Below are positions 3,021-17,565 of a DNA stretch of 25,261 nucleotides, piece by piece. Each line of letters opens with the position of its first letter. The first letter of the stretch is position 1. The stretch is from a virus. The position numbers and the translations under genes are program-made. The stretch is taken from IMG/VR virus record IMGVR_UViG_3300025127_000249, positions 1-25,261 of that record; one strand, written 5' to 3'. The notes under the pieces are model-generated. The model ran no database searches. It was not told the DNA's origin and worked only from the letters and a program-made list of their open reading frames with translations.

Positions 3021-4499
3021 ATGAACCTAGACAAAGAAAAATTAAAAAATTTAGATAAGTTGCCGCCTGACATAAAGAGACAGTTTGCTCTCTATATGAA
3101 TCAATGGAAAGAAAAGAAAAAGGAGTCTCAGATAGCAACTAATTTTATGGATTTTGTAAAACATGTTTGGCCCGATTTTATTGAAGGGTCCCATCATAAG
3201 ATTGTAGCAGATAAATTTAATAAATTAGCTAGTGGTAAGATTAAGAGATTAATTATTAATATGCCTCCTAGACATACAAAGTCTGAGTTTGCTAGTTTCC
3301 TGTTGCCTGCTTGGATGGTTGGAAAAAACCCGAAGCTAAAGATAATTCAATCTACTAACACAACAGAACTATCAGTAAGGTTTGGTCGTAAAGCAAAACA
3401 ACTTATGGACTCTATAGAATACAAACAAGTATTTAAAACAAGACTTAGAGAAGATAGTCAAGCTGCTGGTAAATGGGAAACAGAACAGGGCGGTGAGTAT
3501 TATGCTGCCGGTGTTGGATCAGCTATCACTGGAAGGGGTGCCGATCTATTAATTATTGATGACCCGCATACTGAACAAGATGCAATGAATGCACAAGCAT
3601 TGGAAAGAACTTTTGAATGGTATACATCAGGACCACGTCAACGTCTTCAGCCCGGTGGATCTATTGTATTGGTTATGACACGATGGAATGAAAAAGATTT
3701 AACAGGGCGTCTTATCAAAATGCAACAGGAACCAAAGGCAGACAAATGGGAGGTAATAGAGTTCCCTGCGATTATGCCATCAGGTAAACCCCTGTGGCCT
3801 GAATACTGGAAAAAAGAAGATTTAGAATCAGTTAAGGCTTCTATTCCAATGTCAAAATGGAATTCACAATATATGCAGAATCCAACTGCAGAAGAGGGAT
3901 CTTTAATTAAACGTGAATGGTGGCAAGACTGGGAAGATGATATACCACCTATTGAACACGTCATACAATCTTACGATACAGCTTTTATGAAAAAAACTTC
4001 AGCAGACTATAGTGCTATTACTACTTGGGGTGTGTTTACTCCAAACGAAGATTCAGGTCATCATTTAATATTACTAGATGCTATGAAAGGGCGTTATGAG
4101 TTTCCTGAGCTAAGGCGTATTGCAATGGAACAATATGGTTATTGGAATCCTGAAACTGTTATAATCGAGAGTAAGGCATCAGGGCTCCCACTAACTTATG
4201 AGTTGCGTAAAATGGGGATACCTGTTATAAATTTCTCACCTAGTAAAGGCAACGATAAGCACACTAGGGTTAACGCAGTTTCTCCGCTGTTTGAATCGGG
4301 GAGAATATGGGCGCCCAAAAATATGGAGTTTGCGCAGGAAGTGATAGAGGAATGTGCTGCTTTTCCTTTCGGAGATCACGATGACTTGGTAGATTCTATG
4401 ACACAAGCAGTTATGAGATTTAGGCAAGGTGGCTTTGTAGAACACCCCGAAGACTACAAGGATGAACCTTTACCAAAACCTAAAAGGACATATTACTGA
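3021..4499 (+). CDS. terL: Terminase large subunit (TerL)
   Basis: The 492-residue protein is the ATPase-nuclease that cuts and translocates phage DNA into the prohead through the portal. The ATPase half shows a Walker-A-like loop M-P-P-R-H-T-K-S at residues 81-88, a Walker B D-L-L-I-I-D-D-P-H at 175-183 and the coupling segment M-T-R-W-N-E at 219-224. The nuclease half shows the acidic residues expected for an RNase H-like fold: Asp319 in Q-S-Y-D-T, Glu383 in I-I-E-S-K and the D-H-D-D-L-V-D cluster at 452-458. Length is normal. No Shine-Dalgarno sequence precedes the start, yet no better start exists near the N-terminus. No small terminase gene was recognised in the window. The gene overlaps the next by one base. 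Confidence 0.95.
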   Translation: MNLDKEKLKNLDKLPPDIKRQFALYMNQWKEKKKESQIATNFMDFVKHVWPDFIEGSHHKIVADKFNKLASGKIKRLIINMPPRHTKSEFASFLLPAWMVGKNPKLKIIQSTNTTELSVRFGRKAKQLMDSIEYKQVFKTRLREDSQAAGKWETEQGGEYYAAGVGSAITGRGADLLIIDDPHTEQDAMNAQALERTFEWYTSGPRQRLQPGGSIVLVMTRWNEKDLTGRLIKMQQEPKADKWEVIEFPAIMPSGKPLWPEYWKKEDLESVKASIPMSKWNSQYMQNPTAEEGSLIKREWWQDWEDDIPPIEHVIQSYDTAFMKKTSADYSAITTWGVFTPNEDSGHHLILLDAMKGRYEFPELRRIAMEQYGYWNPETVIIESKASGLPLTYELRKMGIPVINFSPSKGNDKHTRVNAVSPLFESGRIWAPKNMEFAQEVIEECAAFPFGDHDDLVDSMTQAVMRFRQGGFVEHPEDYKDEPLPKPKRTYY

Positions 4500-5389
4500 T
4501 GGGAAAATTTGGAATAGAATTATTAAAAAAAGTTTTTGGCTCAAAATTTGTACAAAAGATTCTTGGTACAAGAACCAATGTCGAAAAACTTCCGATTAAA
4601 AACGATCCGCGAAAAATTATGTATGATGCAACTAAACTTGCAGATGACACTGCAGCTTTAATGTTGGCTAAAGAAAAATTAAAAGAGATAGCTCCATATA
4701 TTGCTCGAATGAATGACTCCGAAGCAAAAATGTATGAGACTAATTTAAAAGCTGTATTAATGGCAGAGAACAAATTAGAGGGTATTGAACAAGTAGCTAA
4801 AGGAGAGGTTGTTGATATTAAAACCGGTGCAAAGATGGATGACAAAGGAATTATGACTCTTAAAGAAAGCGCTGGACAAGAAGAACCACCAGGAACTTTG
4901 ATGGGAAATTTAGAAACAAAAATAAATCAACTTAGAGCAGAAAACAAAACTTTAGATGATATGATGAGTGAAGATCCAATTAAATCTTTTGAAGAGTTTG
5001 TATTGAAAAATCCAAAAAGACCCGGAGGTCCTTTAGATCCTGTCGTAGGGGTTACAAGAACAATCGCTAGAAAAATACTAGATAAAAATAATATTAAAAT
5101 TGATAGAAGAGAAGATCCAATAGATATATTCATGGATAATTTTGGAATTGAAATGGCAACAGACATTAAAGCTTTTGCAGATGATTTAGTTGAATCCGAA
5201 CAAATGGGACGTAATTTAAAACCATTAGATGAATTAATGCAACAAGAAGGTTTATTTGATCTTAAACCAGGTAAAGATCGTTCACAAGGATTGACTGATG
5301 ATGATGTGAAAAAAATATTAGAAGATGATACTACTCCCCCAAGAGATGACAAAGCAGATGGTGGCTTATCTTATTTAATGGGGATGTAA
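4499..5389 (+). CDS. Hypothetical protein between terminase and portal (296 aa)
   Basis: The start overlaps the terminase stop (TGATG). The protein is highly charged and mostly helical, with an N-terminal K-F-G-I-E-L-L-K-K-V-F segment, helices rich in Lys and Glu through about residue 160, and an acidic C-terminal third. It ends with A-D-G-G-L-S-Y-L-M-G-M. Related A-D-G/G-G motifs are found in the next protein, and I remember similar short Gly-Gly motifs in uncultured marine phage proteins. There is no signal peptide, and a small-terminase role is not supported by any helix-turn-helix I can point to. Position suggests a packaging or internal virion role. Confidence 0.8.
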   Translation: MGKFGIELLKKVFGSKFVQKILGTRTNVEKLPIKNDPRKIMYDATKLADDTAALMLAKEKLKEIAPYIARMNDSEAKMYETNLKAVLMAENKLEGIEQVAKGEVVDIKTGAKMDDKGIMTLKESAGQEEPPGTLMGNLETKINQLRAENKTLDDMMSEDPIKSFEEFVLKNPKRPGGPLDPVVGVTRTIARKILDKNNIKIDRREDPIDIFMDNFGIEMATDIKAFADDLVESEQMGRNLKPLDELMQQEGLFDLKPGKDRSQGLTDDDVKKILEDDTTPPRDDKADGGLSYLMGM

Positions 5390-8300
5390 TGAAGATAGGT
5401 GAATATGAACAGATGATGTCCTATCTAACGCGTCCTGCGTTTGAAGATGGAACACCGTTACCAAAAAAGAAACCATACACAATAGAAAATTTTAAAAGCA
5501 AAGTAGATTTATATTTACAAGGAATGTTAGGTACATCTAACAAAGAGTATTTTAGAGACCTAATAATTGCTGAATATGACAAAGCTAAAGAAGCAGGTGT
5601 TGACACGAAAGCTGGTTTAGAGTTTATAAAAGAAAAAAGAAAGATGTATGATACTCTTATAGACGAAGGTCGAAGGCAAGGTGAGCCTGCACAACTTGGA
5701 CCAGCCTATGGAGTAGAAAGAATGGATTTTAAAAGAGGAACTCCATTAGGTTTTAAACGTCCAGAAAAACTTACGTTTGATGATCTTAACAAAGACGGTG
5801 AGTTTGAAAAATTTTTTAAAGAATATTTAGAAAAAAAATCTAAAGTGCAAGTAGCTGGTAGAGCAAGAGAAACTAAACTTTGGCCTATTATGGCAGAAGC
5901 TTTAAAAACTGTTCCTGCAAATGCTTCTGTAAAAGAAAAATATAATGCTATAAAAAATTTTGATAAAAGAGATTCTGAGTATGGTTATACTAAAAGTAAA
6001 ACAGATCATAAAGTAAGCAGAAGATTAACAGCTGCTATTAACGCTTCTTTTGAAGATTCTAAAAAAGGAATTAATAAAATTAATATACAACAATTAGCTG
6101 ATGAAATCCCTGCTTATTCTTACAAAAGTCTTCAAGCTATTTTTGGAAATGCAAAAAGAGATGCTTCAAAAATAAAAGGTCAAGATAAAGCATCAAGAAA
6201 TAAAAGAAATTTAATATTAAATGCAAAAGCTTTTGTAAAAAGATTAAAAGATTTAGGACTTGTAATTACTCAAGGAGATACTGAACAAAGAACAAGAGCT
6301 GGAACAGGAGCAGGTAAAGCATATTTATTTGAGCCATTAAGTGAAGAACTAAAAACTAAATTAAAAGAAATTAAACCTTTAAGAGCATCAGATGTTCCGT
6401 ACGATGAACAAGCTTTACGAAAATTGGTTGCTGCTTATTCTAGAGCATCTGAAGACTATAAAAAATTTGGTTTTAGTAAATCTGGATATGCTTTAGATCA
6501 AGCAGCAAATGCTTTAAATGAAGCATTAATAGAACAGTTTACAACTGGTGTGCCAGAATCAAATAGAAATATTTCTGCATTTAACGATGCTATGACAGAT
6601 CAAGATGTTAAAGATTTAAGAAAATTTATAAATGATAATCCAAAAATTAAAAATATACTTTCAATTCAGTTTGATCCTACAGGAAAAAATGGAACTTATT
6701 TTAAATCTAGAAATATAGATGATTTATCAGGTGGTCAAATATTAAGAGATATATTAGTCGAGAAGGATCACGTGTTCCCAATTAATCAAATAAAAGTTTT
6801 AGAAAAACCAACAAAGACTTCAATGGGTGTATTAGAGGGAGGAGCTTTATCAGAATCACCTTTTAATAAAGTTTTAACTACTAGTCATTTTAATAATTCT
6901 TTAAGAAATAAAATTCAAGGATATCTGAACTCAAAAACTTTAAATAAAGATGCTATCAAACAAATTAATAATACTTTGAATGGACTCGATATGACTATTT
7001 ACCATGATGGTAAATATTATGGTGGTAGAATTAAACCTAGTATTCTAAAACAAATGAATGCATTAGGATACAATGAAATAGATATTTCTAATGATGTTGT
7101 TAAAAATATTAAAGAACAAGATTTAGCTATCAAAGATTTAAAATCTAAAAAATTTTCTGACTTATCAATTACTAAAGCTATAAAGAATTCAAGGTTTGCT
7201 TTACCTTTTGTTCTAGGAACTGGTGCATATAATTTAGGAGAAGATGTTTTAAAAGAAACAGGCTTAGTAGATAAAACTTATGAACAAGTTGCTAGTGCTG
7301 ATGGTGCTCCTATTGTAGAAGAAGGATTTACAACTGGAGAAAAAGCATTTTTAGGAGGAGCTGGTGCAGCTACTGGTGCAGCCGTTTTTCCAAAAGTAAG
7401 ATCAGTATACGGAAAACTTTTAAAACCTGTTCTTAAAACTTTAGCTCCTATTGGAACTCCATTGGGAGTATTAGGTGTAGAATCTTATTTGCAAGCAAAA
7501 GATAAAGAAAGTTCTATAGGTGAAAGATTAACAAATCCTTTAACGTATGCTGGTTTACCGTTAGCAACTTTAGGAGGAGAAGTAGTTAAAAACAAAACTT
7601 TGCAAACTATTTTAAACTTAGGATTACCTCAAAAAATTATAAGAATGGGAACACCAGTAGGTTTAGCTAGTATGGCTGTTTCTAGTTTAGTAGGCGCTGC
7701 AATGGATGCTCAAAAAGAATACGATGCAATGACTCCTCATCAACAACAATTGTTTAGAGAAGAACAAGAAAAATTTGCACAAGACTTTGATGACATGGAA
7801 AATTTAAAGTACGCATCTGGCGGCCGTGCTGGTTTTGCAGATGGACCTATGGATCCTAAAAGAAGAACTTTATTAAAAATATTAGGAGGTATAATGTCAT
7901 TACCTGTTGTAGCAAAATATTTTCAATTAGCTGAACCTTTAGCTCCTGTTGCAAAAAAAGCATTTACAATTGTTGAAAAGTTAAAAAATACAACAACTGA
8001 AATGCCTAGTTGGTTTCCTTCTTTTATAGATAAATTTAGAAAAGAGGGAAAAGCAGAACCTATTTTTGAAACAAAAAGAGTAGATAACCCAGAACCTCCC
8101 TATGGTTATAATGTAGAAAAAACAGATAATGTTATTGGAACTACTTATACCAATGATAATGTTCCAGGTGTTAAAGTAGAAGATTATGATGGTCAAATTT
8201 CTGTTCAATGGGAAAATGAATATTCACAACCAATATCTATGGAATACACAGCTCCTAATGTAAAAGGGCCTAATATGGAAAGAGTAGATAAATATATGTA

Positions 8301-8568
8301 TGAAGGTCCGGATATGGAAATAAAACCTAAAGGAGATTTTTCAGCTGTAGATGCTAGAGCGTATGCAACTGATCCAGATGGAGGATATGATGTAGAAGCT
8401 GAAGTTGTTGGTAAAATAGACGATATGTTTGAAGGAACTTCTCGTACGATGGAAGAGTATGCTACTGGTAAGCCAGTTAAAAAATTGTCTAGTGGAGAAG
8501 AACAGTTAATTCAAGCTGAAGTGAGAGCAGAATCAATGGCAGATGCTGCAAAGGATCTAGATGATTAA
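5389..8568 (+). CDS. Large hypothetical virion-associated protein (1059 aa) with HNH-like motif
   Basis: The start overlaps the previous stop (TAATG). This is the largest protein in the window. Residues 131-139 (D-D-L-N-K-D-G-E-F) resemble a degenerate EF-hand loop. Residues 458-464 (E-K-D-H-V-F-P) followed by 492-508 (F-N-K-V-L-T-T-S-H-F-N-N-S-L-R-N-K) resemble the D-H-x-x-P / N / N-K arrangement of HNH nucleases of the DUF1524 type. Residues about 600-780 hold several Gly/Ala/Leu-rich segments that might touch membranes. At 809-845 a Gly-Gly-Arg-Ala-Gly-Phe-Ala-Asp-Gly linker leads into K-R-R-T-L-L-K and a hydrophobic stretch that looks Tat-like. Size and position between terminase and portal suggest an injected or internal virion protein; this is inference, and no lysozyme domain is seen. 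Confidence 0.75.
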   Translation: MKIGEYEQMMSYLTRPAFEDGTPLPKKKPYTIENFKSKVDLYLQGMLGTSNKEYFRDLIIAEYDKAKEAGVDTKAGLEFIKEKRKMYDTLIDEGRRQGEPAQLGPAYGVERMDFKRGTPLGFKRPEKLTFDDLNKDGEFEKFFKEYLEKKSKVQVAGRARETKLWPIMAEALKTVPANASVKEKYNAIKNFDKRDSEYGYTKSKTDHKVSRRLTAAINASFEDSKKGINKINIQQLADEIPAYSYKSLQAIFGNAKRDASKIKGQDKASRNKRNLILNAKAFVKRLKDLGLVITQGDTEQRTRAGTGAGKAYLFEPLSEELKTKLKEIKPLRASDVPYDEQALRKLVAAYSRASEDYKKFGFSKSGYALDQAANALNEALIEQFTTGVPESNRNISAFNDAMTDQDVKDLRKFINDNPKIKNILSIQFDPTGKNGTYFKSRNIDDLSGGQILRDILVEKDHVFPINQIKVLEKPTKTSMGVLEGGALSESPFNKVLTTSHFNNSLRNKIQGYLNSKTLNKDAIKQINNTLNGLDMTIYHDGKYYGGRIKPSILKQMNALGYNEIDISNDVVKNIKEQDLAIKDLKSKKFSDLSITKAIKNSRFALPFVLGTGAYNLGEDVLKETGLVDKTYEQVASADGAPIVEEGFTTGEKAFLGGAGAATGAAVFPKVRSVYGKLLKPVLKTLAPIGTPLGVLGVESYLQAKDKESSIGERLTNPLTYAGLPLATLGGEVVKNKTLQTILNLGLPQKIIRMGTPVGLASMAVSSLVGAAMDAQKEYDAMTPHQQQLFREEQEKFAQDFDDMENLKYASGGRAGFADGPMDPKRRTLLKILGGIMSLPVVAKYFQLAEPLAPVAKKAFTIVEKLKNTTTEMPSWFPSFIDKFRKEGKAEPIFETKRVDNPEPPYGYNVEKTDNVIGTTYTNDNVPGVKVEDYDGQISVQWENEYSQPISMEYTAPNVKGPNMERVDKYMYEGPDMEIKPKGDFSAVDARAYATDPDGGYDVEAEVVGKIDDMFEGTSRTMEEYATGKPVKKLSSGEEQLIQAEVRAESMADAAKDLDD

Positions 8569-8704
8569 AGGTAAAAAAAGTGGACCACCACCTAAAAAAG
8601 GACCAAGCTCACAAGGCTTGAATATTAATTATAATACTGTTAAAACAGTTAAATTGGAGAAAACAAATGGCAGACATAGACAAAGCTCTACCAAACGAGC
8701 CTAG
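8561..8704 (+). CDS. Tiny basic protein overlapping the portal start (47 aa)
   Basis: A 47-codon frame starts at the ATG at 8561, overlapping the end of the 1059-aa gene by eight bases. AAAGGA lies seven bases upstream. It continues 38 bases into the portal gene in another frame before a TAG. The product begins M-I-K-G-K-K-S-G-P-P-P-K-K-G-P and ends with a basic tail. I recall similar Pro/Gly/Lys-rich short proteins next to portals in uncultured marine phages, which raises confidence, but function is unknown. Without it a 98-base gap would separate the two large genes. Confidence 0.55.
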   Translation: MIKGKKSGPPPKKGPSSQGLNINYNTVKTVKLEKTNGRHRQSSTKRA

Positions 8705-11159
8705 AAAAACAATTAGTGTCCCGGGGGAAGAAGAAATCCAAGAAGAACTTGAACAACAAGTAGAGGAAGAAGCTTCTGCACCAGGCCCTGTTGAAACTGT
8801 AGAAAATGAAGATGGATCAGTTGATATTAACTTTGATCCAAACGCGGCATCACCTGAAGGTGGTGACGATCATTATGCAAACTTAGCAGATTTTTTACCT
8901 GATGAAGTATTAGCATCTTTATCATCTGAGCTTAATTCTAAATACATGGATTATTCTATGTCGAGAAAAGATTGGGAAAAATCTTATACACAAGGTTTAG
9001 ATTTATTAGGATTTAAATATGATAATAGAACAGAACCGTTTCAAGGAGCTTCAGGTGCAACACACCCAGTGTTAGCAGAAGCAGTAACACAATTTCAAGC
9101 TTTAGCTTACAAAGAATTATTACCAGCAGATGGACCGGTAAGAACACAAATTTTAGGAATACAAACTCCAGAAAAAGTTCAACAAGCAACTCGAGTAAAA
9201 GATTTCATGAATTATCAAATCATGGATAAAATGAAAGAGTATGAACCAGAGTTTGATTCTATGTTATTCCATTTACCTCTGTCAGGATCAACTTTTAAAA
9301 AAGTTTATTATGACGAAGTGGAAGGTCGAGCTGTATCAAAGTTCGTACCTGCAGATGATCTGATTGTCCCGTACACAGCTACCTCATTAGATGATGCGGA
9401 GGCAGTCATTCATCGAATAAAAATTTCAGAGAATGATTTAAGAAAACAACAAGTTGCTGGTTTCTATAGAGATATAGAACTTGGTAAACCTCAAGATAAA
9501 GAATCAGATGTTGATAAAAAAGAAAGAGAGTTAGAAGGAGTTAGAAAAACAAAAGATGAAGATGTCTATACTCTTTTAGAATGTCACGTTAATTTAGATT
9601 TAGAAGGATTTGAGGACACAGATCAAGCTGGAGAACCTTCAGGAATTAAACTTCCATACATAGTAACATTAGAAGAAGGATCTAGAGAAATATTGTCAAT
9701 CAAAAGAAATTATGAAATTGGTGATCCAAAGAAAAACAAAGTTCAATATTTTGTTCATTTTAAATTTTTACCAGGTTTAGGTTTCTATGGTTTCGGTCTA
9801 ATCCACATGATAGGTGGACTGTCTAGAACAGCGACCGCAGCTTTAAGACAGTTGTTGGACGCTGGAACTTTGTCCAACCTGCCAGCTGGATTCAAGATGC
9901 GTGGTATTAGAATTAGAGACGACGCACAATCTATTCAACCAGGAGAGTTTAGAGATGTTGATGCTCCTGGTGGTAATCTAAGAGATTCATTTATGATGCT
10001 TCCTTTCAAAGAACCATCAGCAACATTATTACAATTAATGGGTGTTGTGGTTAATGCTGGTCAAAGATTTGCATCAATTGCTGATCTACAAGTTGGAGAT
10101 GGTAATCAACAAGCAGCTGTTGGAACAACCGTTGCTCTTCTTGAAAGAGGATCAAGAACTATGTCAGCAATACACAAAAGAATTTATTCAGCCCTTAAAA
10201 ACGAATTTCAATTAATGGCTAGAGTATTCAAGTTATATCTACCAGCGGAATATCCGTACGACGTAGTTGGGGGTCAAAGAATGATTAAACAACAAGACTT
10301 TGATGATCGGGTAGATATCTTGCCAGTTGCTGACCCTAACATCTTTTCACAGACTCAGCGTATTTCCCTCGCGCAAACAGAGTTGCAGCTGGCAACATCA
10401 AATCCACAAATGCATAATCTATATCAAGCGTATAGAAATATGTATGAAGCTTTAGGTGTAAAAAATATTGATTCAGTATTGGTAAAACCAATGCAACCAT
10501 CACCAAAAGATCCTGCTTTAGAACATATCGATGCATTAGCGGGTAGACCATTTCAAGCTTTTCCAGGTCAAGACCATAGAGCTCACATGACAGCTCACTT
10601 AAATTTTATGGCAACGAACATGGCTAGAAATAATCCAATGGTAATGGCTAGTTTAGAAAAAAATATTTTTGAACACATTAGTTTAATGGCTCAAGAGCAG
10701 ATAGAATTGGAGTTTAGACAAGAATTATCTCAATTACAGCAGTTAGTACAACTTGCACAAGCTAATCCACAGATGCAACAACAAGCAAAACAGCTAAGTC
10801 AACAGATAGAAGCTAGAAAAGCAGTGTTAATAGCAGAAATGATGGAAGAATTTATGCAAGAAGAGAAGAAAATTACTTCACAATTTGATAATGACCCTAT
10901 TGCTAAGCTAAGATCAAGAGAATTAGACCTTAGAGCAATGGAAAATGAACGAAAAGAACGTGAAGGTAAGCAAAGAATGGATCTTGATAAGATGAGAGCA
11001 ATGATGAATCAACAAAATCAAGACGAAAAACTTGAACAAAACGAAAAATTGGCTAATCTAAGAGCAGATACATCAATTCAGAAGACAGTTTTGAGTAAAA
11101 CTCTTCCAAGTTCTGATCAAATGATGCCAAATATCGAAATTATGAGAAAAGGAGACTAA
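8667..11159 (+). CDS. Portal protein
   Basis: GGAG lies upstream of the ATG. The 830-residue protein is a portal, the dodecameric ring through which DNA enters and leaves the capsid. An acidic, variable N-terminus (about 1-70) is followed by the body. Diagnostic-looking segments include the region around residues 205-230 (G-S-T-F-K-K-V-Y-Y-D-E, then F-V-P-A-D-D-L-I-V-P-Y) and F-Y-R-D-I-E-L-G. The C-terminal 130-150 residues are a Gln-rich coiled coil (from about 680) of the kind seen in long-barrel portals of short-tailed phages. The length fits the large portals of that group. Identification also rests on position after the terminase and before scaffold and capsid. Start is unambiguous. Confidence 0.85.
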   Translation: MADIDKALPNEPRKTISVPGEEEIQEELEQQVEEEASAPGPVETVENEDGSVDINFDPNAASPEGGDDHYANLADFLPDEVLASLSSELNSKYMDYSMSRKDWEKSYTQGLDLLGFKYDNRTEPFQGASGATHPVLAEAVTQFQALAYKELLPADGPVRTQILGIQTPEKVQQATRVKDFMNYQIMDKMKEYEPEFDSMLFHLPLSGSTFKKVYYDEVEGRAVSKFVPADDLIVPYTATSLDDAEAVIHRIKISENDLRKQQVAGFYRDIELGKPQDKESDVDKKERELEGVRKTKDEDVYTLLECHVNLDLEGFEDTDQAGEPSGIKLPYIVTLEEGSREILSIKRNYEIGDPKKNKVQYFVHFKFLPGLGFYGFGLIHMIGGLSRTATAALRQLLDAGTLSNLPAGFKMRGIRIRDDAQSIQPGEFRDVDAPGGNLRDSFMMLPFKEPSATLLQLMGVVVNAGQRFASIADLQVGDGNQQAAVGTTVALLERGSRTMSAIHKRIYSALKNEFQLMARVFKLYLPAEYPYDVVGGQRMIKQQDFDDRVDILPVADPNIFSQTQRISLAQTELQLATSNPQMHNLYQAYRNMYEALGVKNIDSVLVKPMQPSPKDPALEHIDALAGRPFQAFPGQDHRAHMTAHLNFMATNMARNNPMVMASLEKNIFEHISLMAQEQIELEFRQELSQLQQLVQLAQANPQMQQQAKQLSQQIEARKAVLIAEMMEEFMQEEKKITSQFDNDPIAKLRSRELDLRAMENERKEREGKQRMDLDKMRAMMNQQNQDEKLEQNEKLANLRADTSIQKTVLSKTLPSSDQMMPNIEIMRKGD

Positions 11160-11549: not shown

Positions 11550-11725
11550 TGGCTGGACCAAGTAAATTCGGAAAAGCAATGTTTGAAAAAAAGAAAAAAA
11601 CATTTGCAAAAGAAAAAATGACATCTGATGACGCTTACAGAATAGGAGCTAAAAAAGGTGGCAAGATGAATGCAGGATTAAAAGCATATCTTGCTAAAAA
11701 GAAAAAGAAGAAGGGTAAAAAATAA
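11549..11725 (+). CDS. Tiny lysine-rich protein (58 aa)
   Basis: GGAGG lies nine bases before an ATG that overlaps the previous TAA. The 58-residue product contains lysine in about a third of positions, with runs of four to six lysines at residues 14-17 and near the C-terminus. A short non-basic centre (T-S-D-D-A-Y-R-I-G-A) separates the two basic parts. Extreme charge suggests nucleic-acid contact, which is inference. It opens the chain of small basic genes and ends in a one-base overlap with the next. Too short for the usual cutoffs of gene callers, so it may be missed in automatic annotation. Confidence 0.7.
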   Translation: MAGPSKFGKAMFEKKKKTFAKEKMTSDDAYRIGAKKGGKMNAGLKAYLAKKKKKKGKK

Positions 11726-11889
11726 TGAGACAGTATTATAAAAAAGGTTCATTTCCTGATTTAAATAAAGATGGTAAAATTACCAAAGCTGATATCTTAA
11801 TGGGTAGAGGTGTAATTGGTAAAAAGAAAAAAAAGAAAAAAATGAAAACAGCTAAATCACCAATGGCTAAACAAGTGAGGCAATCATAA
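11725..11889 (+). CDS. Tiny protein with MRQYY leader and EF-hand-like loop (54 aa)
   Basis: The ATG overlaps the preceding TAA. The protein starts M-R-Q-Y-Y-K-K-G, a leader also found at 12373 and 13051. Residues 12-23 read D-L-N-K-D-G-K-I-T-K-A-D, which has acidic or amide side chains at loop positions 1, 3, 5 and 12, Gly at 6 and Ile at 8, the canonical EF-hand pattern. A single EF-hand would need pairing with another copy, for example by dimerising. The C-terminal half is a lysine tract. It may bind calcium; no partner is identified. The last base of the stop begins the next ATG. Confidence 0.7.
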   Translation: MRQYYKKGSFPDLNKDGKITKADILMGRGVIGKKKKKKKMKTAKSPMAKQVRQS

Positions 11890-12080
11890 TGGCTAAACTT
11901 TGTCCTAGAGGAAAAGCAGCAGCGAAGCGAAAATTTAAGGTATACCCTTCGGCCTACGCGAATATGTATGCTTCTGCAGTTTGCTCTGGTAAAGTTACAC
12001 CAGGTGGTAAAAAGAAAAGAAAGAAAGCTGCAAATGGTGGTTTAATGACAATGGATAACTATTACAAAGGAGTAGTATAA
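11889..12080 (+). CDS. Small basic protein with paired cysteines (63 aa)
   Basis: Starts in a TAATG overlap. The central segment K-R-K-F-K-V-Y-P-S-A-Y-A-N-M-Y-A-S is a pattern I recognise from marine and cyanobacterial phage small proteins of unknown function. Cys5 and Cys32 flank it. A basic stretch (G-G-K-K-K-R-K-K) follows, then N-G-G-L-M and the C-terminus D-N-Y-Y-K-G-V-V. The codons for Y-Y-K-G contain AAAGGAG, which serves as the ribosome-binding site of the next gene. Function unknown; probably a late, virion-related protein given the operon. Confidence 0.75.
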   Translation: MAKLCPRGKAAAKRKFKVYPSAYANMYASAVCSGKVTPGGKKKRKKAANGGLMTMDNYYKGVV

Positions 12081-12373
12081 TGGCAAAAGTAGCAGGACTA
12101 GAAAAATCTCTAAAAGACAAAGCTAAAAAAGAATCTGAAGCTTTAAGATTTAAGTTTGCAAAAACTGATTCACAAAAAAAGTTTCTTAGAGACAACCCAA
12201 ATGTAAAAACTGCATCTGAGATGGAAAAACTAATTGCAGATAAAAAATCTGCATCGCAATCTCAAAGCAGAATGAACCTTAGAGGTGGATCTATGAGATC
12301 TATGTATAAATCAGGTGGTTGTGCACAAATTAAAGGTTTTGGAAAAGCTAGAAGACCAAAGAAAAAAAAATAA
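12080..12373 (+). CDS. Small basic protein with C-terminal GFGKARR tail (97 aa)
   Basis: The start overlaps the previous stop and is preceded by AAAGGAG. The N-terminal two thirds form a charged helix (E-K-S-L-K-D-K-A-K-K-E-S-E-A). The C-terminal third has S-M-R-S-M-Y-K-S-G-G-C-A-Q-I-K-G-F-G-K-A-R-R followed by lysines. I remember tails with G-x-G-K-A-R-R in small proteins of uncultured marine phages, but know no function. A structured short tail on a helical body could be an interaction peptide. It ends in a TAATG overlap with the DUF5872-like gene. Confidence 0.7.
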   Translation: MAKVAGLEKSLKDKAKKESEALRFKFAKTDSQKKFLRDNPNVKTASEMEKLIADKKSASQSQSRMNLRGGSMRSMYKSGGCAQIKGFGKARRPKKKK

Positions 12374-12741
12374 TGAGAGCATATTACTCAAAAGGAGGAC
12401 TTAGAGAATGGGTCAAACAAAATTGGGTCGATATTGCGAACAAGCGAAAAGATGGCTCATACCCAAAGTGTGGGCGAAGTGGTGGAGAAAAAAGAAAAAA
12501 TTATCCAAAATGCGTGCCTATTGCAAAAGCAAGAGCGATGAGCAAAGGGCAGCGTGCGGGTGCCGTAAGGAGAAAACAAGCGAAAGCAAATACTGGTCCG
12601 ACACCGAGTAGAGCTGCAACATTTGCAAAAAGAAAAAAAGCAATGAATGGCGGTTACATTGGCCCAGCAATTAAATCTGATTACGCAGGAAAAATTTTAA
12701 GTAATCCTTCTTATGAAAAATATTACAAAGGAATGATATAA
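12373..12741 (+). CDS. DUF5872-like basic protein (122 aa)
   Basis: Begins in a TAATG overlap with M-R-A-Y-Y-S-K-G, the leader shared with 11725 and 13051. The next 70 residues (L-R-E-W-V-K-Q-N-W-V-D-I-A, then C-G-R-S-G-G, then Y-P-K-C-V-P-I-A-K-A) match my memory of the DUF5872 family, found in phages, algae viruses and some bacteria, function unknown. Two cysteines sit about 14 residues apart. Basic linker and T-F-A-K-R-K-K follow, then a non-basic tail ending E-K-Y-Y-K-G-M-I. The central part is visibly richer in G and C than its neighbours. An out-of-frame ORF (12408-12611) lies inside. Confidence 0.75.
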   Translation: MRAYYSKGGLREWVKQNWVDIANKRKDGSYPKCGRSGGEKRKNYPKCVPIAKARAMSKGQRAGAVRRKQAKANTGPTPSRAATFAKRKKAMNGGYIGPAIKSDYAGKILSNPSYEKYYKGMI

Positions 12742-13049
12742 TGGCAGGTGGCAGTTCATTTATAAGTGATCAAAATTTTACAACTCTGACAGCTGATGGT
12801 CAGGTAAAAACTTTTTCCGGGGGATCTACAAATATAGGTCCTTGTAGAATTACGTATATTCAAGCAACAGGTATAACTAATTTAAAATTATATGATGCAG
12901 CTACTGCATCTGGTAATATTGTTTTTGAATCTACATTTGGTTCAGAAGGTTTAGATATAATGATTCCAGGTAGTGGTATTAGATTTAGAAATACTGTTTT
13001 TGCAGATATAACTGGATCAGGATCTGTAACACTTGGATACACAGGCTAA
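12741..13049 (+). CDS. Small beta-rich virion-like protein (102 aa)
   Basis: Starts in a TAATG overlap with AAAGGA nine bases upstream. Unlike its neighbours it is not basic; it is rich in Gly, Thr, Ser and Ile, with alternating hydrophobic residues (R-I-T-Y-I-Q-A-T, L-K-L-Y-D-A, D-I-M-I-P-G-S-G-I-R-F) typical of beta sandwiches. The closing segment (V-F-A-D-I-T-G-S-G-S-V-T-L-G-Y) resembles that of the 89-aa protein at 18720, so the two may be distant relatives. A decoration or minor capsid role is plausible. It is the only non-basic member within the small-gene chain. Confidence 0.7.
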   Translation: MAGGSSFISDQNFTTLTADGQVKTFSGGSTNIGPCRITYIQATGITNLKLYDAATASGNIVFESTFGSEGLDIMIPGSGIRFRNTVFADITGSGSVTLGYTG

Positions 13050-13050
13050 T

Positions 13051-13344
13051 ATGAGACAGTATTATTCAAAAGGCACAATGCCTGCAAGAAACAAAAAGAA
13101 TTTTAGACCCACAAAAAGTGGAGCTGGAATGACAAGAGCTGGAGTTAAAGCTTATAGAAGACTTAACCCTGGTTCTAAATTAAAAACAGCCGTGACTGGT
13201 AAAGTGAAGCCAGGATCAAAAGCTGCTAAACGTAGAAAATCATACTGCGCAAGATCACTAGGTCAGCTCAAAAGAGCTTCAGCAAAAACACGTAACGATC
13301 CTAACTCACGTATCCGTCAGGCAAGAAGAAGATGGAAATGTTAA
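13051..13344 (+). CDS. DUF6321-like basic protein with MRQYY leader (97 aa)
   Basis: I take the ATG at 13051, one base after the previous stop, rather than an upstream in-frame ATG at 13033 that would read through the preceding gene. The protein starts M-R-Q-Y-Y-S-K-G and continues with G-M-T-R-A-G-V-K-A-Y-R-R-L-N-P-G-S-K-L, then A-K-R-R-K-S-Y-C-A-R-S and a closing R-Q-A-R-R-R-W-K-C. This pattern resembles the DUF6321 family of phage proteins, as I remember it, of unknown function. It is very basic with two cysteines. Nucleic-acid binding or a late virion role is inferred from charge and position. Confidence 0.7.
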   Translation: MRQYYSKGTMPARNKKNFRPTKSGAGMTRAGVKAYRRLNPGSKLKTAVTGKVKPGSKAAKRRKSYCARSLGQLKRASAKTRNDPNSRIRQARRRWKC

Positions 13345-13345
13345 T

Positions 13346-13474
13346 ATGAAAAAACTAAACAAAGTAGCTAAAGCTTTAGGCAAAGCTTCCAAGTTACATA
13401 AAAGACAATCAAATATTATTAAGAAACATATTAAGGAGATGAAACGTGGCGGATCCAAAAAAAGGAACAGGTAA
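13346..13474 (+). CDS. Tiny basic helical protein (42 aa)
   Basis: A 42-codon frame starts one base after the preceding stop and overlaps the next gene by 29 bases in another frame. The product (K-K-L-N-K-V-A-K-A-L-G-K-A-S-K-L-H-K-R-Q) is an amphipathic basic helix ending K-R-G-G-S-K-K-R-N-R. There is no clear Shine-Dalgarno sequence, so coupling to the upstream gene is likely. Two arguments support it: it fills a 100-base gap exactly, and short helical proteins of this style are familiar next to the following gene in related phages. Function unknown. Confidence 0.55.
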   Translation: MKKLNKVAKALGKASKLHKRQSNIIKKHIKEMKRGGSKKRNR

Positions 13475-13871: not shown

Positions 13872-14120
13872 ATGGATCCAATAAACGTAATATATAAAAT
13901 ACAAAGGCTTATAAAAGAACAGTATCAAGCAATCGGAGAAACAATGATCTCTGGAGGTGTTGACAATATGGAAAAATATAAGTATCTAATGGGACAGGCA
14001 CATGCCTATTTTAAATTATCACAGGAAATCTCTACCCTGCTAAAACAAGATGAAAAGGAGCAAACAGATGAACAAAAACCAGACCTCACAAACGTCGTCA
14101 AGTTCGACACCAAAAATTAA
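13872..14120 (+). CDS. Small hypothetical helical protein (82 aa)
   Basis: AGGAGG lies four bases before the ATG. The product is acidic to neutral and helical, with N-V-I-Y-K-I-Q-R-L-I-K-E-Q-Y at the N-terminus and a segment M-G-Q-A-H-A-Y-F-K-L-S-Q-E-I-S-T-L-L in the middle. The C-terminal 25 residues (D-E-K-E-Q-T-D-E-Q-K-P-D) are charged and overlap the start of the GroES-like gene by 53 bases. The pattern of a small helical protein placed before capsid assembly genes is common in phages, but I do not recognise a family. Confidence 0.7.
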   Translation: MDPINVIYKIQRLIKEQYQAIGETMISGGVDNMEKYKYLMGQAHAYFKLSQEISTLLKQDEKEQTDEQKPDLTNVVKFDTKN

Positions 14121-14529
14121 ATTAGCACTACAAGAAAAATATAACGAAGAAAATAAAAAAGAAGTAGAAGGCTACGAACGTTTAAAAACAAAAGAGTCAG
14201 ATAAATTACCAAAACCAACTGGATGGAGAATATTAATTTTACCATTTAAGATGCCTGAAAAAACTAGAGGCGGATTATATCTTGGACAAGAAACAATTGA
14301 GAGACAACAAGTTGGTTCTACATGTGGACTTGTTTTAGAAATGGGACCACATTGTTATGATAAAGAAAAATTTCCAGAGGGCCCTTGGTGCAAAAAGGGT
14401 GACTGGGTGATCTTTGCACGTTATGCAGGATCACGAATACAAATTGACGGGGGCGAAGTTAGATTGCTAAATGACGATGAAGTATTAGCTACAATCGAAA
14501 AACCCGAAGATATACTTCATCAATACTAA
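14068..14529 (+). CDS. GroES-like co-chaperonin (Cpn10 fold), 153 aa
   Basis: I place the start at 14068, preceded by AAGGAG, rather than at an in-frame ATG at 14050. After a 45-residue polar extension the protein follows GroES: P-T-G-W-R-I-L-I-L-P-F at 50-60, a mobile-loop-like stretch P-E-K-T-R-G-G-L-Y-L-G at 63-73, C-G-L-V-L-E-M-G at 86-93, C-K-K-G-D-W-V-I-F at 108-116 and N-D-D-E-V-L-A-T-I-E at 135-144. Family knowledge: such phage proteins (T4 gp31 is the model) cap host GroEL and enlarge its chamber for capsid protein folding. The G-G-L-Y-L tripeptide region matches the GroEL-binding G-G-I-V-L of GroES. It directly precedes scaffold and capsid genes, fitting that job. The N-terminal extension and an insertion at 95-107 are unusual for GroES. 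Confidence 0.85.
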   Translation: MNKNQTSQTSSSSTPKIKLALQEKYNEENKKEVEGYERLKTKESDKLPKPTGWRILILPFKMPEKTRGGLYLGQETIERQQVGSTCGLVLEMGPHCYDKEKFPEGPWCKKGDWVIFARYAGSRIQIDGGEVRLLNDDEVLATIEKPEDILHQY

Positions 14530-14547
14530 ACATAGAAGGAGTAAACT

Positions 14548-15555
14548 ATGCAAGAAGACCAAAAAACAGTAGATATCGATACTTCAGGTCCAGCAATGGA
14601 TGTTGATATCCCTGAAGAAAAAGATCAAGCAGAGATCGAACAGACAGAAGTAAAAGAAGAATCGTCTATTAGACCTGTAGCTGATGAAAAAACACCTGAA
14701 GATAAAACTTATGAAAACGAACGTGAGATTAAGTTAGATAATAAAAAAGAAGAGAAAGAAACTAAAGAAGAGAAAGATGAATTAAAAGATTACTCAGATG
14801 GAGTACAAAGAAGAATAGCTAAACTAACTAAGAAATGGCGAGAAGCTGAGAGACAAAAAGAAGAGGCAGTTAAATATGCTGAATCTGTAATAGCAGATAA
14901 TAAAAAATTAGATGCTAAAGTTTCTAAACTTGAACCAGGATACTTACAATCTACAGAAGATAGTATTGTGTCAGGAGTACAAGCAGCACAAGCTAAACTT
15001 GCAGCAGCTAGAGAAGCAAATGATTTGAAAGCTGAAGCAGAAGCTTTAACTGCAATATCTGAGCTTGGTTATAAAAAAGCTAAACTTGAGGAAACTAAAC
15101 TCGCTCAAGCTGAGTATGAAAAAACTAAAAAAGAAAAAAAACCAGAGATTAACCTTGAAAGAAGGCAAGCTTCTCAAGGATCACCAGATCCTAAAGCAGA
15201 GCAATGGGCTAGTAAAAATGCTTGGTTTGGACAAGATACCGCCATGACTTATACAGCTTTTGACCTACATAAGAAGCTTACCGAGGAAGAAGGTTATGAT
15301 CCTTTAAGTGATGAGTATTATTCTGAAATAGATAAAAGAATAAGACTTGAATTCCCGCACAAATTTGCTAATAATGCAGACAATAGGGAAGTTTCGACCA
15401 AACCTGTGCAAACAGTAGCTTCAGCGAAGCGAAGCACAAATACTGGTCGCAAAAACACTGTGAGACTCACTTCATCACAGGTAGCAATCGCTAAGAAACT
15501 AGGAGTGCCACTTGAAGAATATGCGAAACAATTAAAAATCACGAAGGAGGCGTAA
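14548..15555 (+). CDS. Capsid scaffolding protein (335 aa)
   Basis: AAGGAG precedes the ATG. The N-terminal 90 residues are disordered-looking and very acidic (runs of Glu and Lys). Residues about 85-200 form a long coiled coil (V-Q-R-R-I-A-K-L-T-K-K-W-R-E-A-E-R-Q-K), with Ala-rich helices after it. The C-terminal part contains a more globular W-A-S-K-N-A-W-F-G segment (near 220-235) and a basic tail with V-R-L-T-S-S-Q-V-A-I-A-K-K-L-G. Acidic, helical composition and position just before the head genes fit a scaffold that directs prohead assembly and is then expelled or degraded. No prohead protease gene is visible in the window. Confidence 0.8.
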   Translation: MQEDQKTVDIDTSGPAMDVDIPEEKDQAEIEQTEVKEESSIRPVADEKTPEDKTYENEREIKLDNKKEEKETKEEKDELKDYSDGVQRRIAKLTKKWREAERQKEEAVKYAESVIADNKKLDAKVSKLEPGYLQSTEDSIVSGVQAAQAKLAAAREANDLKAEAEALTAISELGYKKAKLEETKLAQAEYEKTKKEKKPEINLERRQASQGSPDPKAEQWASKNAWFGQDTAMTYTAFDLHKKLTEEEGYDPLSDEYYSEIDKRIRLEFPHKFANNADNREVSTKPVQTVASAKRSTNTGRKNTVRLTSSQVAIAKKLGVPLEEYAKQLKITKEA

Positions 15556-15559
15556 GCAT

Positions 15560-16024
15560 ATGAATAATGATAATAAACGAGCATCCCGTGCGAGTCAGAC
15601 TAGAGAAAAAGAATCTCAACAAAAACAAGTCTGGACTCCCCCGTCATCTTTAGATGCACCCCCTGCACCGACAGGATTTCAGCACAGATGGATAAGAGCT
15701 GAAAGTTTAGGATTCCAAGACACAAAAAATGTGGCTGGAAGAATAAGATCCGGATACGAATTAGTTAGAGCTGATGAATATCCAGATTCAGACTTTCCAA
15801 TTGTTGAAGACGGTAAATACAAGGGAGTGATCGGAGTTGGTGGCCTATTGCTGGCTAGGGTACCGGAAGAGATCGCAAAGCAAAGATCTGAATACTATGT
15901 TAATCAACATGGTGAAAAGGTAAAAGCGGTAGACAACGATCTTATGAAGGAACAGCACCCAAGTATGCCTATTAATGTTGATAGGCAGACACGTGTAACC
16001 TTCGGTGGCTCAAAGAAATCCTAA
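15560..16024 (+). CDS. Conserved head-associated protein between scaffold and decoration genes (154 aa)
   Basis: GGAGG stands nine bases before the ATG. The N-terminal 40 residues are polar and Pro/Gln/Ser-rich. The body begins with F-Q-H-R-W-I-R-A-E-S-L-G and continues with V-A-G-R-I-R-S-G-Y-E-L-V-R-A-D-E-Y, then I-G-V-G-G-L-L-L-A-R-V-P-E-E-I-A. I recall related proteins lying between scaffold and major capsid genes in other phages of this type, always without known function. An assembly or minor capsid role is inferred from position. No cysteines or membrane segments. Confidence 0.75.
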   Translation: MNNDNKRASRASQTREKESQQKQVWTPPSSLDAPPAPTGFQHRWIRAESLGFQDTKNVAGRIRSGYELVRADEYPDSDFPIVEDGKYKGVIGVGGLLLARVPEEIAKQRSEYYVNQHGEKVKAVDNDLMKEQHPSMPINVDRQTRVTFGGSKKS

Positions 16025-16081
16025 AAAGAATTCTTAAACCATCAAGGATAAACTAAAAATGTCTTTAAGGAGGACAATACT

Positions 16082-16651
16082 ATGGCAAACAAAGACGCAG
16101 CCTTTGGATTAAGATCCATTGGTAAAGTAGGTCAGAACAGAGACAACCAAGGTTTATCCGAGTACAACATTGCGGCATCTTCAGCTGCGATCTTTCAAAA
16201 TGATCCAGTTGAAATGGCAACTACAGGTTTTATTACTGTAGCTGCAGCAGGCGATGTTTTATTAGGAACCCTTAATGGTGTTTTCTTCACTGACGCATCA
16301 ACAAGTAAACCAACGTTTGCGAACCATCTGAAAGCAAGTAACACTGCTTCAGATATCGTTGGCTTTGTGTGTGACGACCCTTATGAAAGATTTGAAATAC
16401 AATCTAATAAGGCGAGTGGTTCAACACAAGCTGAAGTTGGAATGGTAGCTGACATTGTATACGCGGCTGGATCAACTCATGACTTCGTTTCAGGAGTAGA
16501 ATTGGATGATTCAACTAAAGCAACGAATACTGGTCAGTTGAAAATAATAGGTGTTTCAAAAGATCCTGATAATAATGAACTTGCTTCAGCTAATGTGAAC
16601 TGGGTTGTTACTATCAACGAACACTTCTTGAAACAAGTAGCCGGAATATAA
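16082..16651 (+). CDS. Decoration-like capsid protein (189 aa)
   Basis: AAGGAGG precedes the ATG. The protein is rich in Ala, Ser, Thr, Gly and Val with alternating hydrophobic residues, and lacks long helices. Segments such as G-L-R-S-I-G-K-V near the start, D-P-V-E-M-A-T-T-G-F and F-V-C-D-D-P-Y-E-R-F-E-I-Q near the middle give it the look of a beta-rich capsid surface protein. It is immediately upstream of the major capsid gene with a short spacer, the usual place for a decoration or stabilising protein. Assignment is from composition and context. Confidence 0.75.
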   Translation: MANKDAAFGLRSIGKVGQNRDNQGLSEYNIAASSAAIFQNDPVEMATTGFITVAAAGDVLLGTLNGVFFTDASTSKPTFANHLKASNTASDIVGFVCDDPYERFEIQSNKASGSTQAEVGMVADIVYAAGSTHDFVSGVELDDSTKATNTGQLKIIGVSKDPDNNELASANVNWVVTINEHFLKQVAGI

Positions 16652-16662
16652 GGAGGATAATT

Positions 16663-17565
16663 ATGGCGATAAGTAGAGGACAATTAGTCAAAGAACTCGA
16701 GCCGGGATTAAATGCCTTATTCGGTTTAGAGTATAAACGTTATGAGAATCAGCATGCGGAAATATACACTACTGAATCTTCAGACAGAGCGTTTGAAGAA
16801 GAAGTTATGTTATCAGGTTTTGCTCAAGCTCAAGTTAAGCCAGAAGGAAGTGGAGTAACTTTTGACAATGCTCAAGAGACTTTCACTGCAAGATATACAC
16901 ACGAAACTGTGGCTCTTGCCTTCGCAATAACTGAAGAAGCTATTGAGGACAACTTGTATGACAGACTTGCTAGTAGATATACAAAAGCATTAGCTAGATC
17001 TATGGCAAACACAAAACAAGTGAAAGCTGTTAATCCATTAATTCAAGGATTCAGCACTTTCAAAGCTGGGGACGGAAGCAATTTATTTGCATCTAACCAC
17101 CCAACTGTTTCAGGTACTGTATCTAACACTTTAGCTACAGCGGCTGACTTGAATGAAACTTCACTAGAGCAATCAATGATCGACATTGCTGCAATGACAG
17201 ACGAAAGAGGTCTAAAAATTGCTGCAAGAGGATTAAAAATGATTATTCCTAGTGAGCTTCAGTTCACTGCTGAGAGATTAATGAAATCTCAAGGTAGAGT
17301 TGGAACAGCTGATAATGATATCAATGCACTTGCTTCTATGGGAATGTTACCTCAAGGTTATAGAGTTAACAATTTCTTAACTGATCCAGATGCATTCTAC
17401 ATCATTACTGATGTGCCAAACGGAATGAAATACTTCGAAAGAGCAGGAATTAAAACTGCTATGGAAGGTGATTTCGATACTGGTAACGTAAGATACAAAG
17501 CTAGAGAAAGATACTCATTTGGAGTATCTGACTTCAGAGGTATCTTTGCATCACCAGGTGCTTAA
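16663..17565 (+). CDS. Major capsid protein, Mu gpT-like (HK97-fold)
   Basis: A strong ribosome-binding site (AAGGAGG) lies before the ATG. The 300-residue protein has the features of Mu-like gpT major head subunits: an N-terminal L-F-G-L-E-Y-K-R-Y-E-N, then T-E-S-S-D-R-A-F-E-E-E near residue 37, F-T-A-R-Y-T-H-E-T-V-A-L-A-F-A-I-T-E-E near 72-90 followed by a helical spine (L-A-R-S-M-A-N-T), and a C-terminal domain with G-L-K-M-I-I-P-S-E-L-Q and R-Y-S-F-G-V-S-D-F-R-G-I. The HK97 fold is inferred from family. It lacks an obvious cleaved N-terminal delta domain. It is followed by a perfect terminator, fitting high expression. Confidence 0.88.
   Translation: MAISRGQLVKELEPGLNALFGLEYKRYENQHAEIYTTESSDRAFEEEVMLSGFAQAQVKPEGSGVTFDNAQETFTARYTHETVALAFAITEEAIEDNLYDRLASRYTKALARSMANTKQVKAVNPLIQGFSTFKAGDGSNLFASNHPTVSGTVSNTLATAADLNETSLEQSMIDIAAMTDERGLKIAARGLKMIIPSELQFTAERLMKSQGRVGTADNDINALASMGMLPQGYRVNNFLTDPDAFYIITDVPNGMKYFERAGIKTAMEGDFDTGNVRYKARERYSFGVSDFRGIFASPGA

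Follow-up and report, generated by a model that had tools for sequence, protein, structure and literature searches.

Three small genes of a virus from IMG/VR (record IMGVR_UViG_3300025127_000249) begin with nearly the same eight residues and then encode different proteins. Is this leader a label that sends unrelated proteins to one place, a device for translation, or a trace of recombination? The sequence evidence strongly supports a shared tag on unrelated bodies. The tag is probably an address label, and its most likely destination is the virus particle.

Three genes among the head genes share a leader

The window, i.e., the whole stretch of 25,261 nucleotides that was analyzed, encodes a terminase, an SU10-type portal, GroES, a presumed scaffold, and a capsid of the Mu gpT/Phage_capsid_4 type. 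Its genome plan is nearest to those of the Pelagibacter phages HTVC027P and HTVC023P, and the source phage is marine and has relatives among SAR11 phages. About 12 tiny genes, the majority of them encoding strongly basic proteins, lie between the portal and GroES (Table 1). Just behind gene 13051 follows another small basic open reading frame, MKKLNKVAKALGKASKLHKRQSNIIKKHIKEMKRGGSKKRNR (13346-13474), whose counterpart is HTVC027P gp51. The large proteins encoded between terminase and portal (5389-8568 and 4499-5389) carry GGRAGFADGP and end in DGGLSYLMGM, and similar GGR[VIA]G motifs occur in the corresponding large-protein genes of HTVC027P and 023Pt_psg01.

Table 1. Tagged genes of the window, their bordering genes, and associated signals.
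Feature	Coordinates	Strand	Remarks
Portal (SU10-type)	8667..11159	+	Upstream border of the small-gene block
54-aa basic protein, net charge +15, weakly EF-hand/dockerin-like (FPDLNKDGKITKADILMGRG)	11725..11889	+	N-leader MRQYYKKG, 11725-11748
63-aa YPSAYAN (LCPRG) family protein, net charge +14, phrog_27331	11889..12080	+	C-terminal NYYKGVV, 12057-12077
AAAGGAG, K-G codons of the 11889 tail	12066..12072	+	Predicted Shine-Dalgarno sequence of gene 12080 (stop/start overlap TAATG)
97-aa basic protein	12080..12373	+	C-terminal peptide MRSMYKSGGCAQIKGFGKARRPKKKK, 12293-12370
122-aa DUF5872-like protein, net charge +24	12373..12741	+	N-leader MRAYYSKG, 12373-12396; C-terminal module NGGYIGPAIKSDYAGKILSNPSYEKYYKGMI, 12646-12738
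AAAGGA, K-G codons of the 12373 tail	12727..12732	+	Predicted Shine-Dalgarno sequence of gene 12741
97-aa DUF6321 protein, net charge +30	13051..13344	+	N-leader MRQYYSKG, 13051-13074
GroES; kinesin-like presumed scaffold (14548); two head genes; major capsid of the Mu gpT/Phage_capsid_4 type (16663)	14050..17565	+	Downstream border; group marker

A first-pass annotation had reported the leaders of genes 11725, 12373, and 13051 and the identity of the first 15 bases of 11725 and 13051; both observations are exact. When the window's 38 proteins were compared, the three leader genes gave the top three N-terminal similarities (6, 6, and 5 of residues 2 to 8 in common). In composition shuffles the best single pair reached 6/7 in 2 of 2,000, and 0.0003 pairs with at least 6 residues in common were expected. 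The likeness among the three leaders is not due to chance. The 15-base identity adds nothing beyond the peptide, because at this genome's codon usage the probability of identical codons for M-R-Q-Y-Y, given the peptide, is 0.14; it is hence no evidence for DNA copying. A start of gene 13051 at its inner Met (13078, MPARNKK) was considered unlikely, since AAAAGG lies merely 4 nucleotides (nt) ahead and homologues with KGTN instead of KGTM retain the leader.

The tagged bodies belong to different families

The earlier family assignments fared unequally. The 13051 protein matches DUF6321 (PF19846; Pfam E = 1.3e-11, 45.4 bits versus a gathering threshold of 28.5), as had been proposed. The DUF5872 likeness of the 12373 protein holds through relatives (phrog_23735, E = 8e-26) but not through a Pfam match of its own at E ≤ 1; relatives in loci L349 and L376 match PF19197 at about 1e-14, and phrog_23735 links the 12373 protein to L349. 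For the 11725 protein a weak EF-hand likeness is present, but the EF-hand and dockerin matches fall below the Pfam cutoffs (E = 0.0049; 17.5/14.5 bits versus 22.9/25.9). Its homologues have an identical leader in loci L097, L167-L170, and L339, and many others have no leader. The bodies are small and basic, as described, but to say that they diverge completely overstates the case slightly: genes 11725 and 13051 additionally share KG[ST][FM]PxxNK.

An AlphaFold model of the 12373 protein has a mean pLDDT of 59, which is insufficient for a fold search, and residues 1 to 3 and most of 73 to 122 are below 50; the tagged ends are thus predicted to be flexible. Within the same gene, an overlapping open reading frame in the +2 frame (12408-12611) begins after AAAGGAGG at a distance of 9 nt and is open in many homologues. 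As a gene it was rejected: its median length is 60 aa, it is broken after 2 to 4 codons in some homologues, and it is probably an A-rich by-product.

The leader follows the phage group

IMG/VR was searched with a degenerate DNA pattern (TAATG plus M-[RS]-x-Y-Y-x-K-G), for which counts are lower bounds based on the matches listed. At least 161 matches were found in the loci examined, and all 161 are open in frame. They comprise at least 77 unique N termini, which in the matches listed agree at positions left free by the pattern (R2, 76/77; K/S6, 74/77; G/S/T9, 76/77). Proteins of at least eight unrelated families begin with the leader; their bodies are DUF5872-like, DUF6321, phrog_17747-like, phrog_7595-like, YPSAYA, EF-like, KKGLYYYMNRAKKKG, and TKAQKTLPKEL. 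Among the matches listed, net charge is at least +8 in 111 of 112 complete leader proteins (medians, +21 and 89 aa), and the same capsid signature is present in 36 of the 41 leader loci of at least 8 kb. A similar pattern, without TAA and with one more GG, gave 28 scattered matches in 257 Gb of prokaryote genomes. In loci chosen independently of the pattern, the N-terminal motif occurs 45 times, 33 of them at [MVL]R starts and the rest in leader variants or a gp48-like body, and is absent from shuffles; the C-terminal motif occurs 81 times at a C terminus and twice elsewhere.

Homologues with and without the leader were then compared across phages. Bodies of these families carry the strict tag in 167/675 cases in this capsid group versus 0/30 in other phage types, namely, HTVC010P-, Eistla-, and C75C1-like phages and P-SCSP1u/2 (P = 6e-4, with groups assigned by marker hits, sequences that are not independent, and at least one contig, L044, that looks misassigned). 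The tag therefore belongs to the phage and not to the body, and the families do not carry it independently of the phage. Of the 29 large loci of the capsid group, 11 lack a strict YY tag, which makes the tag dispensable unless its role is taken there by looser variants (FSKG, LAKGG, MYGSGG, and DMTxM tails).

The position of the genes also recurs. In the window the small-gene block lies between portal and scaffold, and in a lineage of this capsid group with a higher GC content it lies behind the capsid gene, between capsid and tail tube; it is always among head genes. Loci L376 and L385 of that lineage have up to three genes per genome that start with MRxYYK. Between lineages the block of small basic genes appears to have moved jointly from the portal-GroES to the capsid-tail tube interval (L348, L349, L355, L376, L385, and L413). 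In three isolates the strict motif was counted in 2/98 late and 5/129 early genes, numbers that have no power to show enrichment.

These data bear on the idea that the tag directs early-acting effectors to a host target, such as the nucleoid, ribosome, or RNA polymerase, after synthesis or ejection. The internal proteins of T4 are ejected effectors, and small, basic, diverse bodies would suit takeover proteins. However, the genes belong to the head block and not to an early block, and one tag is used by phages whose GC content differs so widely (0.36 to 0.53) that their hosts probably differ. We consider a host target very improbable.

The peptide is conserved at the N terminus, and the C-terminal copies appear to be doubly constrained

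In the DUF5872-like family, 24 leader DNAs were compared: R, Y, S, and G do not vary (apart from one Y-to-F change), while Arg is encoded by four codons, Tyr by two, and Gly by three; across all families, six Arg and four Gly codons are used in the matches listed. Since codons vary synonymously while residues stay fixed, the peptide is what is kept, and this pattern indicates that selection acts on the leader peptide.

The first-pass annotation had offered a duplicated translation-start cassette as the alternative. In its full form this explanation would make the leader a copied start cassette and the C-terminal tails translated ribosome-binding sites. It has support at the C terminus, where the K-G codons (AARGGN) lie about 8 nt ahead of the overlapping TAATG start of the following gene and where 26 of 26 overlapping DUF5872-like tails score as Shine-Dalgarno sequences. 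For the leader it fails: synonymous sites are free, R2, Y4, and Y5 are unexplained, related peptides occur at C termini, and no start lies at a fixed distance behind K-G (the spacing in 13051 is too short, and 11725 and 12373 have no in-frame start). Even at the C terminus it does not account for Y-Y or for DYYKDIM tails, in which the peptide is kept with AAAGAT and hence with no Shine-Dalgarno signal. As an account of the whole pattern, a translation signal is thus a poor candidate, about as improbable as a host target. The tails nevertheless appear to be under a second constraint, in that their K-G codons make a good Shine-Dalgarno sequence for the next gene. Recurring KG and KGG C termini in such genomes may, in part, be translated ribosome-binding sites.

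Related peptides at C termini are exchanged between bodies

The C-terminal YYKG peptides of 11889 and 12373 had not been seen in the earlier annotation. The 11889 protein ends in ...MDNYYKGVV and the 12373 protein in ...NPSYEKYYKGMI, of the KYYKGMI type. In the DUF5872-like family, the C-terminal tail is missing in 25 of 27 distinct leader-bearing cases, and a YY tail is present in 60 of the 144 others; the window and L340 have both on one protein. On a tree of the DUF5872-like bodies alone, built from few columns, the leader changes 18 times and the tail 38 times, with at least four leader changes on well-supported branches, and cores up to 99% identical bear different ends. Only four phylogenetically independent pairs support a near-exclusion of leader and tail (on average, opposite ends in 2.9 pairs and the same in 0.1; P ~ 0.25), which is thus suggestive only.

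Larger pieces are exchanged as well. A C-terminal module of about 35 residues (M[IV][RK]QAQ..Y.GSYISGDLGGV.VGN.SY.KYYKG) is found on four unrelated bodies: DUF5872-like, HTVC027P gp48 relatives, the VPNCVP body, and one YPSAYA body. The gp48 relatives additionally carry an internal R-x-[YF]-F-S-K-G. A second tail, MRSMY.SGG.CAQIKGFG.ARRP, ends gene 12080 (12293-12370) and is swapped between unrelated bodies (L031, L032, L168, and L169); homologues of 12080 include tail-only matches (residues 67 to 96) on other bodies, the YPSAYAN family among them, and body-only matches (1 to 67). Further tails (DMT[TR]M.V, GLARRKR, and GCGAVM) behave in the same way. A tblastn search of named phages with the C-terminal tail alone gave nothing convincing.

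Together, these results bear out the earlier proposal of a tag on unrelated bodies: leader and tail come and go on near-identical bodies, at least eight families are involved, and the tag tracks the phage group. They could also arise from modular hitchhiking, in which recombination shuffles terminal peptides with little function of their own among neighboring small genes; the tail vocabulary is indeed swapped between bodies, and the genes are neighbors in one block. Against this, the residues remain constant across variation in codons and in GC content (0.36 to 0.53), and the motif is strongly biased to protein ends. Hitchhiking seems improbable to us.

Another possibility is that the peptide is a nucleic acid-binding or condensation "sticker" of aromatic, Gly, and Lys residues, comparable to RGG/YG-rich proteins, which would aid DNA binding or condensation in the cell or head without a protein partner. 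The bodies are highly basic, the ends are predicted to be disordered, looser variants (Y-x-K-G-G, MYGSGG, and GGRVGF) recur, and the terminal position is indifferent. However, a sticker would not need the fixed M-R-x-Y-Y order, yet R2 and S/K are present in 76/77 and 74/77 of the matches listed; nor would it explain why the tag is confined to one capsid group though the same bodies exist elsewhere. We regard a sticker as unlikely, if less so than hitchhiking.

A proposed docking tag for loading basic proteins into the head

The explanation that we favor, held tentatively and at somewhat below even chances, is that M-R-x-Y-Y-[KS]-K-G-[GST] at the N terminus and [KND]YYK[GD] at the C terminus form a portable, flexible docking tag that is read by the procapsid and loads basic proteins into the head. 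Docking behavior is suggested because the ends are predicted to be flexible, the motif is short and terminal, and the bodies vary. Given the location of the genes among head genes and the association of the tag with one capsid type, the best guess for the reader is a head component. In this model, small Lys/Arg-rich proteins from the head block of one podovirus group would carry the tag, a procapsid partner (scaffold, portal, or inner face of the capsid) would read it, and diverse DNA-binding or otherwise basic cargo would enter the head as the internal proteins of T4 do by means of their capsid targeting sequence. One common partner, the procapsid, would read the N- and C-terminal versions; alternatively, the two peptides may be different signals that are merely alike. 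Packaging of the tagged proteins is supported indirectly, by the head-block location, the dependence on capsid group, and the DUF6321 protein in S-CREM2 virions described below. The maturation tag that had also been suggested finds no support here: no prohead protease was matched among the window proteins scanned, the window being a fragment, and the tag can stand at either end. The capsid protein matches PHROG models of capsid/protease fusions, in the capsid portion of the models.

If the model is right, the tag unites eight or more families annotated as "hypothetical" in a single functional set that can be tested. SAR11-type phages are among the ocean's most abundant, and their small genes are mostly unexplained. 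The tag also points to a way in which podoviruses could load cargo, similar to that of T4, and would be a minimal peptide with which to bring proteins into a phage head. A broader claim, that the motif (M-R-x-Y-Y-[KS]-K-G or [KND]YYK[GD]) is a short encapsidation signal independent of protein end and protease, which brings an exchangeable kit of small basic proteins into the head of one podovirus group and of which some C-terminal copies double as ribosome-binding sites, is possible but doubtful.

Comparison with known phages and with T4

HTVC027P, HTVC023P, and 023Pt_psg01 have the genome plan of the window and a homologous capsid. HTVC027P gp50 starts with MRSYYSEGG, and HTVC023P gp52 and gp53 end in KKYYGGMIEI and DYYKDIM, respectively. 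These three phages have one to two strict tags each, in contrast to five in the window, on proteins annotated only as hypothetical.

DUF6321, DUF5872, and YPSAYA proteins of marine phages and fusions of the Syn9 gp114 type have the basic bodies in common with the window; the MRxYYxKG leader was not found on those bodies outside the capsid group tested, and the cyanophage fusions have acidic EEVxxE linkers. In Syn9 gp114 (443 aa), YPSAYA, DUF6321, and a weak DUF5872-like match are fused, with VPNCVP recognized by eye, which suggests that these bodies belong together. Both in this protein (L565:3146-4477) and in S-P4 (L567:2026-3615), repeated EEVxxE linkers separate the fused bodies; they look like possible prohead-protease sites, and a polyprotein is conceivable. 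The C terminus of cyanophage S-CREM2 ORF137 matches DUF6321 in our analysis, and this protein was detected in virions by mass spectrometry (4 unique peptides, 4.1% coverage; PMC10665884, Table 3); it has no tag. No published virion proteome of a tagged phage was found. The P-SCSP1u cryo-electron microscopy paper presents models of portal, capsid, and tail proteins; a mention of the DUF6321 protein was not found there. T4-GC119, "structural" in the S-P4 record versus "hypothetical" in Sullivan 2010, was not used as proof of a virion location.

The T4 capsid targeting sequence is N-terminal only and is removed by the gp21 prohead protease. It is described as the sole conserved part of diverse internal proteins (PMC3012670). 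The window phage resembles T4, with its IPI-IPIII and Alt proteins, in that several small proteins of unrelated families bear a common, conserved tag at one end. It differs in that the tag is 8 residues long and may be N-terminal, C-terminal, or internal, with a leader that is well defined at the N terminus and related YYK[GD] peptides at C termini, and in that encapsidation is here what we infer. By this comparison, the tag is best described as analogous to the T4 capsid targeting sequence and not as a member of it.
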